Of a DNA stretch of 54,462 bases, positions 47,895-54,462 are shown in pieces. Numbering within the stretch: the first letter of the stretch is position 1; the number at the start of each line of letters is the position of its first letter. The stretch spans positions 1 through 54,462 of the forward strand of contig JAFVZN010000026.1 of the NCBI GenBank assembly GCA_017508135.1, read 5' to 3'. Made by a program: the position numbers and the translations under genes. A model generated the notes under the pieces. It searched no databases and was not told the origin of the DNA. It saw nothing but the letters and a program-made list of their open reading frames with translations. Source of the DNA: Lentisphaeria bacterium. Its GTDB lineage: Bacteria; Verrucomicrobiota; Lentisphaeria; Victivallales; Victivallaceae.

Positions 47895-48968
47895 TCATTT
47901 GGTTCCGATCTGCGGATAACTGCCGAGAATTTTGAAGAATGCGGAATTTTGTTCCAGCTCCATGCAGGCATCTTTCACGTCCGGATCACTTTGATGTCCG
48001 AGCAAGTCGATGAAAAAGCAGTATTCCCAACCGGCTTGCTGCTGCCACGGGCGGCTTTCGATCAAAGTCAGCTGCAGCTGATTTTTCCGGAACGGTTCCA
48101 ACGCTTCATACAGTGCGCCCGGACGGTTTTTTACCGCAAAACACAAACTGGTTTTGTCATTGCCGCTGCGTGCAACAGGGTGTTTGCTGATAACCAGAAA
48201 TCTGGTGGTGTTGGTGCTGGAATCCTCCACATTTTCTTCAAGGATGTTCAAATCGTGAAGTTTACAGGCAACGGGCGTTCCCAATGCGGCGGCGAACTCT
48301 TCTTGCGCGGCTCTTTCCGCGGCGAAGGCGGTGCTGGTCATCTCCACAAGTTCCACTCCGGGAAAATGTTCAAGCAGATAGTGCTGGCATTGTCCGAGTA
48401 CCTGCGGATGGCTGTAAATGCGTCTGATCTCCTCCCGTTTGCACTTTGCCATCAGCGAATGGTGGATACGGCAATACTTTTCTGCGGTAATTTTGACATC
48501 ACTTTTCACCAGCCAGTCCATAGTGTAGTTGATAACTCCTTCGGCGGAGTTTTCAATGGGAACACAACCGTGATCTGCTCTGCCGCATTCGACCGCCCGG
48601 AAAACTTCCGGGATGGTCTTTTGCGGAACCAGTTCCGTTTGCGTACCGAAAATCTCTATCGTCGCCTGATGGGAAAATGTTCCCAACGGCCCCAGAAAAG
48701 CCGCTTTGAGCGGCCGTTCCAACGCCCGGAGCCCGGAAAAGATTTCCCGGTAGACGGCATGGAGGATCTCCGGTGTCACCGGCCCGGAATTGAGGGCTTG
48801 CAGGCGTTCCATCATCTTTTGCTGATAAACCGGATCATATACCGGCTGATTCTGCTCACGCAACTCTCCGGCAACATTTTTTGCCGCCAGAAAACGTTTG
48901 TTGAGCAGTGCTATCAGCTGAGCATCAAGTTTTTCCACTTCCGCAAGAGCATCTGATGATCTGTTCAT
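47895..48968 (-). CDS. pheA: Bifunctional chorismate mutase/prephenate dehydratase (P-protein)
   Basis: Converts chorismate to prephenate and on to phenylpyruvate, the phenylalanine branch. 357 residues from the ATG at 48968, which follows AAAGGAGTG by 6 bases; the longer frame upstream overlaps the fusion gene. Domains: AroQ chorismate mutase (about 1-85, LDAQLIALLNKRFLAAKNV), prephenate dehydratase (about 90-270: FLGPLGTFSHQAT, CVPIENSAEG, and STNTTRFLVI with the catalytic Thr), and a C-terminal ACT domain (about 280-355) with the phenylalanine-binding sequences RPGALYEAL and ESRP. Feedback inhibition by Phe is therefore expected. It lies 13 bases after the aroB-tyrA-aroK fusion. Confidence 0.95.
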   Translation of the reverse strand: MNRSSDALAEVEKLDAQLIALLNKRFLAAKNVAGELREQNQPVYDPVYQQKMMERLQALNSGPVTPEILHAVYREIFSGLRALERPLKAAFLGPLGTFSHQATIEIFGTQTELVPQKTIPEVFRAVECGRADHGCVPIENSAEGVINYTMDWLVKSDVKITAEKYCRIHHSLMAKCKREEIRRIYSHPQVLGQCQHYLLEHFPGVELVEMTSTAFAAERAAQEEFAAALGTPVACKLHDLNILEENVEDSSTNTTRFLVISKHPVARSGNDKTSLCFAVKNRPGALYEALEPFRKNQLQLTLIESRPWQQQAGWEYCFFIDLLGHQSDPDVKDACMELEQNSAFFKILGSYPQIGTK

Positions 48969-48981
48969 GGGAACACTCCTT

Positions 48982-51513
48982 TTACAGCCATTTGTCTTTG
49001 TAGAGGGAAAGGATATGCAATGCCGTATAATGTGGTGTCGCCGCCGGTACGCACCGGGCTTCGCACGTTGAGGCAAACACCGCTTTGCGGGCGATGTTCA
49101 TCTCTTTGAACGCTGCTTCGGGATCGGAAACATTCTGCAGGAACGGCGGCAGACCTTTCTTTATGATCCGCTCAAAAGCGACCTTGTCGTCCGTATCCAG
49201 CCACACCTTGAATCCAAGCTGTTCTCCGGTTTGAACGTCCACAAAAGGATTGCTTAAAGCTCCGCCGCCCAGAGCAATGACCATCCGTTCGTTTGAACCG
49301 GCAAGATCGCGCAGTACATCGGCTTCCAATTTCCGGAAGAACTCCTCTCCGCCGGCGGAGAAAATTTCCCGGACACTGCGGTTTTTACCATCTCTTTCCA
49401 CGATCAGATCATCGCTGTCCACGAATTTTATATCAAGGATCGCGGCGATCTCTTTGCCGACGGTGGTTTTTCCGCAGTGCTTGATGCCGCAAAGGACGAT
49501 ATTCTGCGGCAGATCATGGCTCTTTTTGTAACAGAGCCAGGAGTCGCGCAAATCGCGCCCCAGAGCAAAGAGTTCAAAGAATTTGTTTCCGTCACCCTGA
49601 ACCAGCGTGCGCCTTATTTCTGCCAGACGGTACTGGAATTCATCGAGTGCCGGCATGATCGCACCGCTGTTGGATATACAAATTTCCCGCCACATGGCAG
49701 GTGAACTTGAGGCGATACGGCTGGTATCCCGGAAGCCGGTGGCACAGCCGGAGTAATAACGGCGCTGTTCACCGGCATCGCTGCGGTCAAGGATGCTGCG
49801 GGTGAGTGCCGAAGCGATGATATGCAGCATGTGGCTGGAGTTGGCAACCAGGGCATCGTGGGAATCGCAGTCGATATCCTTTAAATTGGCGTTGAGATCT
49901 TTCCAGAAATTTTTTACCGTCGCCATGCCTTGGGCGGAGGAGTATTTTCCCGGGACGATCAGGATGTCGGCGTTTTCATAAAGTCCTTTCACGGCTGAAC
50001 GCCAGGAACTTTTTTCCGTTCCCGCCATCGGGTGACTGCCGACGAAGTCCAGTTCGGGAAACTCAGCGGCACATTTGATGATACACCCTTTTACACTGGA
50101 GATATCGGTCATCACGGCACCGGGTTTCTGGAAATGGTGATACTTGCGGATAAACTCCATGGTCACCGGTATCGGCAGACAGAGGATGACGATATCGCCG
50201 CTGGCGATGGCATCTTCCGGAGTGGCATAGATCTTTTCAGCGGCGAGTTTCTCCGCCATCGCCTGACAGCCTTCGGGAGAACGGTTCCAGACGGAGACCA
50301 TATATTTGCTGTGGTCGATGCTCAACGCCATGGAAGCTCCGAGCAGACCGAGGCCGATGATGGCAACCTCCGGGCGGTTGTCGGCGACCGGAGAAAGGTG
50401 GTCAAAACGGAATTTGAAATATTTTTCCAACAGTACGGCAGTTTGCTCCGGATCCAGATCGACAGTTTTGACTTTGCCGGTCTCCAGCGGTAAAACTGCC
50501 CGGAACTTTCCGTCGCCGTTTTTCTTGTCGCCTTTCATCAACGCGATGATTTTTGCGGTATCACGTTTGATCGCGGAGGTTGGGAAACTTTCGGGAGCGA
50601 TGTTGTATTTTTCCAGAAGCTGATGCTGAAACGCCATTACGTCATTCCGGCAAAGTCCGAGTTCCTGAGCGATAAAAACGGCGATGTCCATTCCGATCGC
50701 CACCGCTTCACCGTGGGCGAGAGCAAAAGAACTCAAGTGTTCCAGTGCGTGACCGAAGGTGTGACCGTAATTCAAAAAGACACGCCCGGAATCGCCGCTT
50801 TCTTTTTCATCGGCGGAGACCACCGCCGCTTTGATCTCGCAGGAACGTTTGACGGCGAATCGGATTTTCTGCAAATCTTCAATCACTTCGGCAAAGGAGT
50901 GTTTCTGCAGTTCTCCGGCAAAATCCCGGTCGAGGATCATCGCGGTTTTTACGATCTCCGCCATACCGCTGGCGATTTCCCGTACCGCAAGTGTTTTCAA
51001 AAGAGAACAATCAATAACGACCAGCTTCGGCTGATGGAAGGCACCGACCAGATTTTTGCCGTGAGCGGTGTCAACGGCGGTTTTTCCGCCGACCGAAGAA
51101 TCCACCATCGCCAGCAGAGAGGTCGGTATCTGGATGAAATCAACTCCGCGCATATAAACGGATGCGGCAAAACCGGTCAGATCACCCGTCACTCCGCCGC
51201 CAAGAGCGGCAAAGAGCGCGTTACGTCCCAGTTTGAGTTCGGCGGCGTAAGCGCAAAGTTTCATTGCGTTGTCGATATTTTTTGAAGCTTCGCCTGCGGG
51301 GAATACCCAGTGGAAAACGGTTTTTCCGGCTGAGGTCAAAGAGGAGGTTAGCTTGTCCAGATATCGCGCGGTGTTGCTGTCGGCAACAATAAGAACATTT
51401 TTCTGCGGCAACGCGGCAAATGCATCAACAACGGCATTGCTTTCAATGGAGTCGAAAATGATGTCATAACTGCGTTCACCCAGTTCCACGGTCACTTTTT
51501 CACTGCTGTTCAT
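48982..51513 (-). CDS. Trifunctional AroB-TyrA-AroK fusion protein
   Basis: One 843-residue frame joins three enzymes. Residues 1-about 365 are 3-dehydroquinate synthase (AroB): ALGGGVTGDLTGFAASVYMR, PTSLLAMVDSSVGGKTAVD and NYGHTFGHALE with the zinc His. Residues about 383-665 are prephenate dehydrogenase (TyrA): NAD-binding VAIIGLGLLGAS near 385, TDISSVKG, GSHPMAGTE, and ANSSHMLHIIASAL with a conserved His. Residues about 670-843 are shikimate kinase (AroK): P-loop GIKHCGKTT near 677, DSDDLIVE, GGEEFFRKLEADVL and ALGGGALS. The parts lie in frame with no stop or frameshift, and each keeps its key residues. The start overlaps the aroA stop (ATGA). It covers steps 2 and 5 of the shikimate pathway plus tyrosine synthesis. 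Confidence 0.93.
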   Translation of the reverse strand: MNSSEKVTVELGERSYDIIFDSIESNAVVDAFAALPQKNVLIVADSNTARYLDKLTSSLTSAGKTVFHWVFPAGEASKNIDNAMKLCAYAAELKLGRNALFAALGGGVTGDLTGFAASVYMRGVDFIQIPTSLLAMVDSSVGGKTAVDTAHGKNLVGAFHQPKLVVIDCSLLKTLAVREIASGMAEIVKTAMILDRDFAGELQKHSFAEVIEDLQKIRFAVKRSCEIKAAVVSADEKESGDSGRVFLNYGHTFGHALEHLSSFALAHGEAVAIGMDIAVFIAQELGLCRNDVMAFQHQLLEKYNIAPESFPTSAIKRDTAKIIALMKGDKKNGDGKFRAVLPLETGKVKTVDLDPEQTAVLLEKYFKFRFDHLSPVADNRPEVAIIGLGLLGASMALSIDHSKYMVSVWNRSPEGCQAMAEKLAAEKIYATPEDAIASGDIVILCLPIPVTMEFIRKYHHFQKPGAVMTDISSVKGCIIKCAAEFPELDFVGSHPMAGTEKSSWRSAVKGLYENADILIVPGKYSSAQGMATVKNFWKDLNANLKDIDCDSHDALVANSSHMLHIIASALTRSILDRSDAGEQRRYYSGCATGFRDTSRIASSSPAMWREICISNSGAIMPALDEFQYRLAEIRRTLVQGDGNKFFELFALGRDLRDSWLCYKKSHDLPQNIVLCGIKHCGKTTVGKEIAAILDIKFVDSDDLIVERDGKNRSVREIFSAGGEEFFRKLEADVLRDLAGSNERMVIALGGGALSNPFVDVQTGEQLGFKVWLDTDDKVAFERIIKKGLPPFLQNVSDPEAAFKEMNIARKAVFASTCEARCVPAATPHYTALHILSLYKDKWL

Positions 51514-52790
51514 GGTTGTACACTTTCTTTTATGGAAACTCCAAGTCGGGAAAAATCATCGGCAAACGCCGGATATGTCACCTGACAACATTCACCATCC
51601 TTGATGAGTGTCGTTCCCTCTGCACCCAATGCCGCCACGGTCAACGCCATGGCGATACGGTGGTCGCCGTAACTGTCGGTCAACGCACCGTGCAGAGTTT
51701 TGCCGCCATGGATTATCATGCCGTCATCAAGCTCCTCTATTTCTGCGCCCATTTTGCGCAGTTCTCCGGTCATGCAGGCGATGCGGTCGCACTCTTTCAA
51801 ACGCGCCTGCGGAACATTTGCCAGATGGGTCTCCCCCTGAGCGTAACAGCCCAGCACCGCCATGAGCGGCAGTGCATCCGGGGTTGCGTTCAAATCGAAA
51901 GTCCCTCCTTTGAGCGCGGATCTGCGGACGACGACTTCACCGTTATCGACGGTTATATCGCCGTTCATGGCGCGGACATGATCGAAAACTTTTTTATCTC
52001 CCTGCAAATCGTCAAAGTCCAGATTGGCAATACGGACCTCTTTCCCTGCGATGACACCGGCTCCCAGCGGGAATGCCGCCGTGGAGAAATCCGCCGGAAT
52101 GATCCGGGAAAATGGTTGATAATGCTGGTTGCCCGGAATTTCAAAATGAAGAAGGTCGTCCGTGTATTTTACACAAATACCGCACCGTTTCAGCCAGTCC
52201 AGGGTGATGCGTACATAATCGGCTTCGTTGAGAAAATCCAATGTCAGAACGGAATCGTTTTCCGCCATGACCAGAGCCATCAGAAGTGCCGTCAGATATT
52301 GGCTGGTCGTTCCGTCCACTTGGGTTGAACCGCCTTGAAGCGGACCGGTGACAGAAAGCGGAGCAAAGCCGTTGGTGCTGGAACACTCTGCTCCGAGCGC
52401 ACTCAAAGCGGCAAGTTCTCCTGCCATTATCCGGGTCCGCAAAGAGGAGTCGCCGTCAAAGGTGACCCTGTTTTTGCCCAGCGCGGAAACGGCGGTGATT
52501 ATCCGCATGGTGGTCCCGGAGTTTCCGAGGTCGATGGTTCCGGCATTGGCGGTGAAATTTTTTCCGCAGCCGGTTATCTGCCAGAGAGAGGGTGTTTCAT
52601 TGATCGTTGCGCCGAGGGCACGGGCGGCGGCGAGGGCGCTGCGGGTGTCGGCAGAATAAAGCGGAGCGTGTATCTCCGAAGTTCCTTCGGCAAGCAGTGC
52701 GGCGACCACCGCCCGGATGGTGTGGCTTTTGGAACCCGGAACGGCAATGCGGCCGGATAATTGTGAACAGGGGGAAATTTTCCAGATCAT
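51510..52790 (-). CDS. aroA: 3-phosphoshikimate 1-carboxyvinyltransferase (EPSP synthase)
   Basis: Adds enolpyruvate from phosphoenolpyruvate to shikimate-3-phosphate. 426 residues, standard length. Signatures: GSKSHTIRAVVAALLAEG (19-36), LGNSGTTMRIITAVSAL near 87, DGDSSLRTR near 110, and SYGDHRIAMALTVAALGAEG near 382. GNSGTT replaces the more common GNAGTA/T; changes in this loop affect glyphosate binding, so sensitivity cannot be assumed. GGAGG lies 7 bases before the ATG. It follows aroF by 60 bases and overlaps the fusion gene by 4 bases. Confidence 0.95.
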   Translation of the reverse strand: MIWKISPCSQLSGRIAVPGSKSHTIRAVVAALLAEGTSEIHAPLYSADTRSALAAARALGATINETPSLWQITGCGKNFTANAGTIDLGNSGTTMRIITAVSALGKNRVTFDGDSSLRTRIMAGELAALSALGAECSSTNGFAPLSVTGPLQGGSTQVDGTTSQYLTALLMALVMAENDSVLTLDFLNEADYVRITLDWLKRCGICVKYTDDLLHFEIPGNQHYQPFSRIIPADFSTAAFPLGAGVIAGKEVRIANLDFDDLQGDKKVFDHVRAMNGDITVDNGEVVVRRSALKGGTFDLNATPDALPLMAVLGCYAQGETHLANVPQARLKECDRIACMTGELRKMGAEIEELDDGMIIHGGKTLHGALTDSYGDHRIAMALTVAALGAEGTTLIKDGECCQVTYPAFADDFSRLGVSIKESVQP

Positions 52791-52850: not shown

Positions 52851-53858
52851 TCAATCTTCCTGCATGATTTTTTTCAAAGAGGTGAGTTTTTTCGCCAGCT
52901 TGTCGAAGCTCTCCGGAGTAAGGCTCTGGGGGCCGTCACACTTGGCTTTGGAGGGGTCGTTGTGTACTTCGATCATCAAACCGTCAGCACCGGCGGCTAC
53001 TGCTGCCATGGAGAGCGGAGAGACGAAATCCGCGATCCCGGCCGCGTGGCTGGGGTCGATCACGACCGGCAGATGGGAAAGTTTCTTGAGTGCCGGAACC
53101 GCAGAGATATCCAGAGTGTTCCGGGTGTAGGTTTCAAAGGTACGCACACCGCGTTCGCAGAGGATGACCTGATCGTTGCCGAAAGCCATGATGTATTCCG
53201 CACTCATCAACAGTTCCTGATAGGTGCTGGCAAGACCGCGTTTGAGCAAAACCGGCTTGCCTGAGCGACCCAGCTGCTTGAGCAGTTCAAAGTTCTGCAT
53301 ATTGCGGGCACCGACCTGAATGATGTCGATCTCGTCGAAGAGGTCAAGCTGTGACAGATCCATGATTTCGGTCACGATCGGAAGTCCGGTATCCTTTTTG
53401 GCTTCAAGGAGAAGTTTGATGCCTTCTTCGCGCATTCCCTGGAAGGCATAGGGGGAAGTGCGGGGTTTGAACGCGCCGCCGCGCAGGATTTTTGCTCCGG
53501 AATTTTTCACATCGCGGGCAACGGAGATGATCTGTTCTTCGCTCTCGACCGAACAGGGACCGGCGATGAGGGTGAGGGAATTGCCGCCGATGACGGCATC
53601 GCCGACGGTGATAACGGTGTCCATCGGATGAAATTTCCGGTTGGCGTTTTTGAAAGGTTCCTGGATGCGTCGGACTGCTTCGACGATTTTCAGCTGGGAG
53701 AGGCTTTCGATGTCGATCCGGGTGGTGTCGCCGACCAATCCCATGATGGTCTGATGTACACCTTCGGTGATGTGCGGAGTGACACCGTGGGATTTTACCA
53801 TCTCAGCCAGTGTGTTCAGTTCTTGTGCTGTCGTGTTCTCTTTCAGAATAATAATCAT
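52851..53858 (-). CDS. aroF: 3-deoxy-7-phosphoheptulonate synthase (DAHP synthase, type I beta)
   Basis: First step of the shikimate pathway: phosphoenolpyruvate plus erythrose-4-phosphate gives DAHP. The 335 residues follow the Thermotoga-type layout: an N-terminal ferredoxin-like regulatory domain (about 1-68, MIIILKENTTAQELNTL to VEAVRRI), which in that type binds Tyr or Phe, then the catalytic barrel. Motifs: LIAGPCSVES near 94, RGGAFKPRTSPYAFQG near 120, QVGARNMQNFELL near 180 and VIDPSHAAG near 268. The ATG at 53858 follows GGGA only weakly. It is the first enzyme gene of the operon, behind the attenuator, so it may be controlled at both enzyme and RNA level. Confidence 0.95.
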   Translation of the reverse strand: MIIILKENTTAQELNTLAEMVKSHGVTPHITEGVHQTIMGLVGDTTRIDIESLSQLKIVEAVRRIQEPFKNANRKFHPMDTVITVGDAVIGGNSLTLIAGPCSVESEEQIISVARDVKNSGAKILRGGAFKPRTSPYAFQGMREEGIKLLLEAKKDTGLPIVTEIMDLSQLDLFDEIDIIQVGARNMQNFELLKQLGRSGKPVLLKRGLASTYQELLMSAEYIMAFGNDQVILCERGVRTFETYTRNTLDISAVPALKKLSHLPVVIDPSHAAGIADFVSPLSMAAVAAGADGLMIEVHNDPSKAKCDGPQSLTPESFDKLAKKLTSLKKIMQED

Positions 53859-53895
53859 TTTTTTTGTCCCGTATAATAATAGTTGTTTTTTTATT

Positions 53896-53938
53896 AAAAG
53901 AAAGAACCCCGCCGGAAAATTTTATTTCAGCGGGGTTC
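53896..53938 (-). terminator. Attenuator terminator before aroF
   Basis: On the minus strand GAACCCCGC (53938-53930), a 17-base loop, GCGGGGTTC (53912-53904), then TTTCTTTT (53903-53896). It is a perfect 9-bp GC-rich stem with a U-tract, located 38 bases before aroF and after the leader peptide stop. With no gene of normal size upstream in this strand, it is best read as a leader terminator of the aro operon. Confidence 0.85.
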
Positions 53939-54000
53939 GGAAAACTTATACTGTATATGTCAGAACTGTTTCAAGCCGGCAACAACCTTTCCGCCCCGCT
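53929..54000 (-). promoter_or_regulatory. Antiterminator pairing of the aro leader
   Basis: On the minus strand AGCGGGG (54000-53994) directly followed by CGGAAA (53993-53988) can pair with TTTCCG (53943-53938) and CCCCGCT (53935-53929), with two unpaired A residues (53937-53936). These 13 base pairs use up the 5' arm of the terminator, so only one of the two structures can form. The upstream half lies within codons 20-25 of the leader peptide, so a moving ribosome would block it. Confidence 0.75.
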
Positions 54001-54061
54001 TTCTAAAGTAAAAAGCAAAGCAGCTGATAAAGTAAAAAAAGTTGTTGTTGATATAACTCAT
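53960..54061 (-). CDS. Leader peptide of the aromatic amino acid operon
   Basis: A 33-residue peptide, MSYINNNFFYFISCFAFYF followed by RKRGGKVVAGLKQF. Residues 8-19 are FFYFISCFAFYF: six Phe and two Tyr in twelve codons, with no Trp. It starts 41 bases after the -10 box and ends 22 bases before the terminator stem. No strong ribosome binding site precedes the ATG; an in-frame GTG three codons earlier is an alternative. Known attenuation leaders such as PheL are built the same way: when charged Phe- or Tyr-tRNA is short, the ribosome stops in this run. Codons 20-25 encode the antiterminator strand, so a ribosome that reads through masks it and lets the terminator form. The regulatory role is inference from this arrangement. 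Confidence 0.75.
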   Translation of the reverse strand: MSYINNNFFYFISCFAFYFRKRGGKVVAGLKQF

Positions 54062-54101
54062 AGTCTGCACTTTTTTATGACTTTGAAAAATCACTGTACC
54101 T

Positions 54102-54129
54102 AATATAACATGAATCACCTGGATTTCAA
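54102..54129 (-). promoter_or_regulatory. Promoter of the aromatic amino acid operon
   Basis: Minus strand: TTGAAA (54129-54124), 16-bp spacer, TATATT (54107-54102). Transcription would start near 54095, giving a leader of about 237 bases that carries the leader peptide, the antiterminator and the terminator. Confidence 0.75.
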
Positions 54130-54183: not shown

Positions 54184-54462
54184 TTTGTTATTGTCTCATT
54201 TCTGGTGAAATCAAAACTTCGGCGGTGCATTGCGGCAATCTCGCGCCTTGCGTCGCTCGCCGCTCGTGCTTCGCACTCGACGGTTGCAGTCGATTTTCCG
54301 GAGACCTCGCTCTGCGGCATTCCGCGCACCTTCCGCCTTACTCATGCCTTGAGTATGGTAGTTGTTTAATACTTCAAAAAATCTCCCTGCGGCGGCGGGA
54401 GAGCCGCCTCGCTGCTCGTGCTTCGCACTCGACGGTTGCAGTCGATTTTCCGGAGACCTCGC
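54184..54462 (+). repeat. Modular dispersed repeat, two partial copies at the right edge
   Basis: 54184-54224 repeats 787-826. Then comes a variant block (GCGGCAATCTCGCGCCTTG, from about 54231) related to the reverse complement of 88-139, the shared CTCGTGCTTCGCACTCGACG/GCAGTCGATTTTCCGGAG block, and CATGCCTTGAGTATGGTA. A second copy of the CTCCCTGCGGCGGCGGGAG block begins near 54385 and runs off the window. No gene is visible in 54143-54462. Confidence 0.75.

Follow-up and report, generated by a model that had tools for sequence, protein, structure and literature searches.

Does the short Phe- and Tyr-rich reading frame ahead of this aromatic amino acid operon control its transcription and, if so, how? 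The operon lies on the minus strand of the window (the whole stretch of 54,462 nt that was analysed), which is the entire contig C99 of a draft genome that is 72.65% complete. The gene order is aroF-aroA-(aroB/tyrA/aroK fusion)-pheA:

52851..53858, minus strand: DAHP synthase of the B. subtilis type, 335 aa, the operon's first gene (PF00793, TIGR01361, NF006421)
51510..52790, minus strand: aroA, EPSP synthase (TIGR01356)
48982..51513, minus strand: trifunctional fusion of 3-dehydroquinate synthase, prephenate dehydrogenase and shikimate kinase
47895..49076, minus strand: pheA-like chorismate mutase / prephenate dehydratase (PF01817, PF00800)

The real start of the pheA-like gene is probably downstream of the listed TTG. 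Thirteen genomes of the family, the one studied here among them, carry the aroB-tyrA-aroK trifunctional fusion at full length. In some relatives (G033, G039 and G046), the match to the fusion covers the tyrA-aroK part alone, in one open frame.

Organization of the leader region

Upstream of the operon, the original prediction placed a promoter, a 33-residue leader peptide with six Phe and two Tyr in residues 8-19, a terminator with a U-tract and an exclusive 13-bp antiterminator whose upstream strand is inside the peptide's codons. These elements are present in the sequence, the promoter as a promoter-like site, and the ORF matches exactly:

54102..54129, minus strand: promoter-like site, TTGAAA (54124-54129), 16-nt spacer and TATATT (54102-54107), with TG before the -10; a pattern match
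53960..54061, minus strand: leader peptide ORF, 33 codons and TGA, MSYINNNFFYFISCFAFYFRKRGGKVVAGLKQF; frame kept in 13 relatives
54005..54040, minus strand: regulatory codons 8-19, FFYFISCFAFYF, encoding F F Y F I S C F A F Y F (6 Phe, 2 Tyr)
54005..54024, minus strand: region 1, pairing with region 2 in ribosome-free RNA (protector hairpin); outer arm 54038-54050
53988..54002, minus strand: region 2, 5′ arm of the antiterminator, AAAGCGGGGCGGAAA, within leader codons 20-25
53929..53944, minus strand: region 3, 3′ arm of the antiterminator, TTTTCCGAACCCCGCT; its CCCCGC part doubles as the 5′ arm of the terminator
53905..53937, minus strand: terminator hairpin (regions 3:4), AACCCCGC...GCGGGGTT, GC-rich
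53896..53906, minus strand: U-tract, TTCTTTCTTTT, interrupted

Phe is encoded at positions 8, 9, 11, 15, 17 and 19 and Tyr at positions 10 and 18; only one of 500 dinucleotide shuffles of the region equalled the F/Y-richness score of this leader. The leader stop codon is 101 nt from the aroF ATG with the terminator in between, and 46 nt separate the terminator from the DAHP synthase gene. The Shine-Dalgarno sequence of the leader is weak in the window (AAGTGCAGACT-ATG), as is that of aroF.

The leader fold is more stable than all 200 of 200 dinucleotide shuffles (z -4.7). Regions 2 and 3 form the antiterminator through 13 pairs and a 2-nt bulge, and this duplex (-26.0 kcal/mol) scored above 300/300 shuffles (z -4.6). 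Among the Rfam families for amino acid leaders and T-boxes, no covariance model matched the window at the gathering score. A search of nine leader loci at E 0.5 returned two irrelevant matches and no relevant family.

The promoter-like site has 10 of 12 consensus matches, which taken alone is near chance. When the 75 nt upstream of the leader ATG were scanned in 21 related leaders, 12 had a site with 10 or 11 of the 12 consensus positions, compared to 5.8% of shuffles. Upstream of this site we noted a 55-nt direct repeat (54256-54310 and 54408-54462), the copies of which are 98% identical and 152 nt apart. The second copy stops exactly at the contig end.

Ribosome position and the competing hairpins

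We consider it about 90% probable that this leader is a ribosome-mediated transcription attenuator of the classical kind, sensing charged tRNA-Phe and tRNA-Tyr. From the sequence elements we infer promoter activity, stalling and regulated read-through, as follows. RNA polymerase would start near 54095 and a ribosome would begin the leader peptide. Scarcity of charged Phe- or Tyr-tRNA would make the ribosome wait within codons 8-17 and so open the 1:2 protector hairpin. The freed region 2 would then pair with region 3 once this is transcribed, the terminator would come too late, and transcription would read through into aroF-aroA-aroB/tyrA/aroK-pheA. If both charged tRNAs are plentiful, the ribosome would be on region 2 (about codons 18-29) or past it, permitting 3:4 pairing and a stop near 53896. 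In ribosome-free RNA, the 1:2 hairpin and the terminator are predicted to form, giving a default of "off" on the full transcript.

We modeled folding with region 4 not yet transcribed. With the ribosome at codons 6-17, the antiterminator probability was near 1 for most footprints tried, and with the ribosome at about codons 19-29 it was mostly near 0. According to the model, stalls at Phe 8, 9, 11 and 15 and at Tyr 10 would all be productive, and the outcome at codons 17-19 would depend on the footprint. Codon 15 is ~20 nt before the GCGGGG core, and the spacing of the Trp codons of trpL is close to this. In equilibrium folds of the full leader, the terminator won at every ribosome position tried. 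Therefore, antitermination must be kinetic and decided by timing, as in other attenuators.

It had been proposed that full translation covers the upstream strand of the antiterminator. In the folding model this is so for a ribosome on about codons 18-29, but a ribosome at the stop codon (codon 34), approximately eight codons past region 2, leaves that strand uncovered. Thus, textbook stop-codon masking is not exactly applicable. As modeled, termination once the whole peptide has been made would need another basis: timing, formation of the 1:2 hairpin behind the ribosome, or arrival of the next ribosome.

Conservation and distribution among relatives

We aligned 14 leaders of the window's type (A1) and a sister set of ten leaders (A2). 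By its own terms, the original prediction would fail if the Phe/Tyr codons or the two stems were missing from relatives; both are kept. In A1, gap segments inside the ORF are all 3 or 6 long, and those after the ORF are of every length. Changed F/Y codons still encode F or Y in 56% of cases versus 22% for random single changes, a comparison uncorrected for relatedness. Codon-position divergence in the leaders showed no clear synonymous bias.

Alignment and a stem covariation check had also been proposed. In A2, covariation of the antiterminator is 0.380 (shuffled mean 0.199, slid maximum 0.138) and that of the terminator is 0.412 (shuffled mean 0.237, slid maximum 0.128), and in neither case did any of 500 shuffles score as high. 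Both sides have changed in 11 cells of the antiterminator and 15 of the terminator; one strand is common to the two stems, and both covary. Compensated pairs include region 2 GGGGCUUGC opposite GCAAGCUCC (L002), GGGGUUUGC opposite GCAAACUCC (L125) and GGGGCCCG opposite CGGGCUCC (L131). This strong signal derives from the sister set and not from the window's own subfamily, where 134 of 500 shuffles reached the antiterminator covariation because the GC core is nearly invariant. One window-type leader (L124) has an A-U pair in place of an antiterminator G-C, and the window-type terminator shows mild covariation.

Upstream regions of DAHP synthase homologues were gathered from the same family, the phylum and GTDB genomes, and short ORFs with an F/Y-richness score ≥4.5 were counted. 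Such ORFs precede DAHP synthase in 72 of 115 related regions, compared to 1 of 115 antisense regions and 2.3% of shuffles. By group, they were found in 22/40 regions of the Lentisphaerota set, 47/68 of Bacillota (Clostridia), 3/4 of other named Lentisphaerota and 1/2 of Treponema. Across these regions the design is the same and the sequence differs. Distant phylum members also have leaders, for example MNNNRYFYFGFFYFAFTERGVG (L197) and MHQTLSYASFYFYYGYWWFSSRGM... (L191).

A hairpin and T-run follow the ORF in 67 of 75 leaders according to a first terminator script. This script missed the terminator of the window because the U-tract is interrupted; a second script detected it. The antiterminator duplex beats 95% of shuffles in 24/25 leaders of the Lentisphaerota set and 13/43 of Bacillota, and the mechanism is therefore well supported in Lentisphaerota and less so in Bacillota.

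We made several further observations on these regions. In the Clostridia regions L036-L112, the Phe/Tyr leaders (47 of 68 Bacillota regions) mostly have terminators. Many of these terminators contain CGCAGTGAA and show weak pairing to a TTTGCTGC segment that follows the aromatic codons; CGCAGTGAA also occurs in several terminators from Lentisphaerota. The L191 leader (genome G140), MHQTLSYASFYFYYGYWWFSSRGMVAHALKG, also precedes DAHP synthase and combines Phe and Tyr codons with two tandem Trp codons; it may respond to Phe, Tyr and Trp alike. No convincing leader was found in pheS upstream regions of the genus. Runs of four F/Y codons across the genome studied here gave 138 matches, fewer than a reversed control pattern, making the count uninformative.

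The leader was proposed as the attenuator of the aromatic operon. This is supported for the window, but such leaders are not confined to the operon, and most of the relatives' operon copies of DAHP synthase are without one. The operon copy carries a leader in the window, in G032 and in G068, although the G068 contig may be a binning error because it is from another genus and has several DAHP synthase fragments. In one sister clade, where several of the DAHP synthase copies are the first gene of an aro operon, the seven copies checked have no such leader. Where the operon copy is leaderless, the other DAHP synthase copy in these relatives usually has a leader. The genome studied here has a second DAHP synthase (C42:6780), preceded by its own Phe/Tyr leader MNKNYGKIYRFSFYFYFRGGACRAMI (L002:1321-1401) with its own terminator and antiterminator, and this leader type is common to at least three relatives. 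Judged from these sequences, operon-wide attenuation within the genus is a feature of the window's small clade only, and the usual place of the leader is a stand-alone DAHP synthase.

The original prediction stated that Phe and Tyr, and not Trp, are the amino acids read by the leader, and the codons of the ORF bear this out. The scarcity of trpE in the genus would explain this choice: of 34 members, 7 were found to have the gene and 27 to lack it, and among the 14 good genomes 3 have it. It is also not in the assembly studied here, a weak observation alone at 72.65% completeness, and the pattern is consistent across good genomes. trpB was found in most genus members. Loss of trpE with trpB kept suggests loss of de novo Trp synthesis and possible indole salvage, and the Phe/Tyr choice fits organisms that send chorismate mainly to those two amino acids. 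Six genus members (L219-L224) have Trp-coded leaders before trpE, for example MKTTLCKIIFLSKAWRWR (L220), MQKTFHNCLVWWCWR (L224) and MKNLTCKIILTKGWRWRF, followed by hairpins that look terminator-like by eye. These are putative trp attenuators in Lentisphaerota, and leader-peptide attenuation seems to be a general habit of the lineage.

These results bear on other explanations of the locus. One is a small gene for a functional hydrophobic membrane peptide, with the hairpin serving merely as its terminator; we regard this as very unlikely. A promoter-like site and a terminator do flank the ORF, and residues 8-19 are indeed hydrophobic, but only the aromatic class of residues is conserved, whereas length and the other residues vary widely. 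Further, the C-terminal codons pair and covary with a terminator arm, the ORF keeps its place ahead of DAHP synthase across phyla, and Trp-coded counterparts precede trpE. A metabolite riboswitch or T-box with an incidental short ORF could account for the strong leader fold (z -4.7) ending in a terminator, and T-boxes are usual for aromatic genes in Bacillota. However, neither the window (gathering thresholds) nor the nine leader loci (E 0.5) gave a relevant Rfam match, and what is conserved is the codons and two short stems, with no aptamer-like core across families, leaving this explanation only a slight chance. Leader peptides can also act through Rho-dependent termination or translation control (tnaC and ermC types), but such control of aroF is similarly improbable, as no sequence feature points specifically to it, nearly all members have an intrinsic terminator and U-tract with a 5′ arm common with the antiterminator, and the terminator sits within the 101 nt that separate the leader stop from the aroF ATG.

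In combination, the leader reads as a real, conserved attenuator of the classical type that belongs to a broad class located upstream of DAHP synthase.

Origin and comparison with known systems

In the DAHP synthase tree, sequences from Lentisphaerota and Clostridia are intermixed, and three DAHP synthase clades join at one unresolved fork. Most other genera of the family are without a close relative of the window DAHP synthase. The named public contigs nearest to the window DAHP synthase include several Lentisphaerota, among them SIG97 and SIG87, the upstream regions of which look like those of the same-genus genomes G031 and G037. By eye, the Oligosphaeraceae leaders (L038, L040) resemble clostridial ones (TAAYFYYRFAYYFTGKA versus FAAEYFYFNFAYFFGKA). 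That leader and gene were transferred together is plausible enough, from these sequences, to merit a test.

A broader reading, which we hold tentatively and put a little below an even chance, is that these leaders form a class of combined Phe/Tyr attenuators, widespread and as yet undescribed, that goes with DAHP synthase genes of the B. subtilis type in gut Clostridia and Lentisphaerota. The class would have moved between phyla with the gene, with stems rewritten and aromatic codons kept, and in the window's clade the leader-gene unit would control the whole shikimate-to-Phe/Tyr operon.

Ribosome-mediated attenuation is known mostly from Proteobacteria and Actinobacteria. The leaders described here may extend it to Lentisphaerota and, through their shared target gene, to many gut Clostridia, in which one would expect T-boxes. 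They also suggest a compact and testable rule for organisms without trpE: Phe/Tyr leaders on the common pathway, and Trp leaders only with the trp operon. As a natural series in which stems are rewritten and Phe and Tyr codons are interchangeable, they could be useful for studies of ribosome position versus termination. Lopatovskaya et al. (2010; cited in PMC4833913) reportedly surveyed attenuation across bacteria, and that survey may hold predictions.

The original prediction knew of no described case in the phylum, and in the openly accessible literature we found no report of such an attenuator for Lentisphaerota or for clostridial DAHP synthase. However, a Phe-coded uORF before aroF in Acholeplasma, uORFC-13-1, was proposed in 2021 as a likely attenuator (PMC8632094). 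Compared by described features, it resembles the window leader in its Phe-codon uORF, promoter-like boxes and apparent terminator directly before aroF. It differs in that the published motif has "at least one" Phe residue and a further conserved helix, and its 24 representatives are from Acholeplasma and environmental sequences only (PMC8632094). As far as we found, the attenuator is new for the phylum and the mechanism is not.

Enterobacterial pheA and pheST attenuators have a Phe-rich leader and competing antiterminator and terminator, and control Phe synthesis. Unlike these, the window leader has no Rfam match, reads Phe and Tyr together and has DAHP synthase as its first gene. The original prediction pointed to enterobacteria as the well-known case; leader peptides have also been described beyond Proteobacteria (PMC2965389, PMC1262725). 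The His leader peptides before hisS/hisZ in bacilli, reported in 2010, likewise represent leader-peptide attenuation outside Proteobacteria and Actinobacteria, but involve another amino acid, other genes and Bacillota only (PMC2965389). In Actinobacteria, leader peptides were found in 2005 and no RNA regulation of Phe or Tyr operons was reported (PMC1262725). The trp attenuators (E. coli trpL; trp of Corynebacterium and Streptomyces, PMC1262725) share the logic and the 1:2, 2:3 and 3:4 arrangement of the window leader. In contrast to these, the window leader reads Phe/Tyr instead of Trp and runs approximately eight codons past region 2, so that a ribosome at its stop codon would not cover that region.
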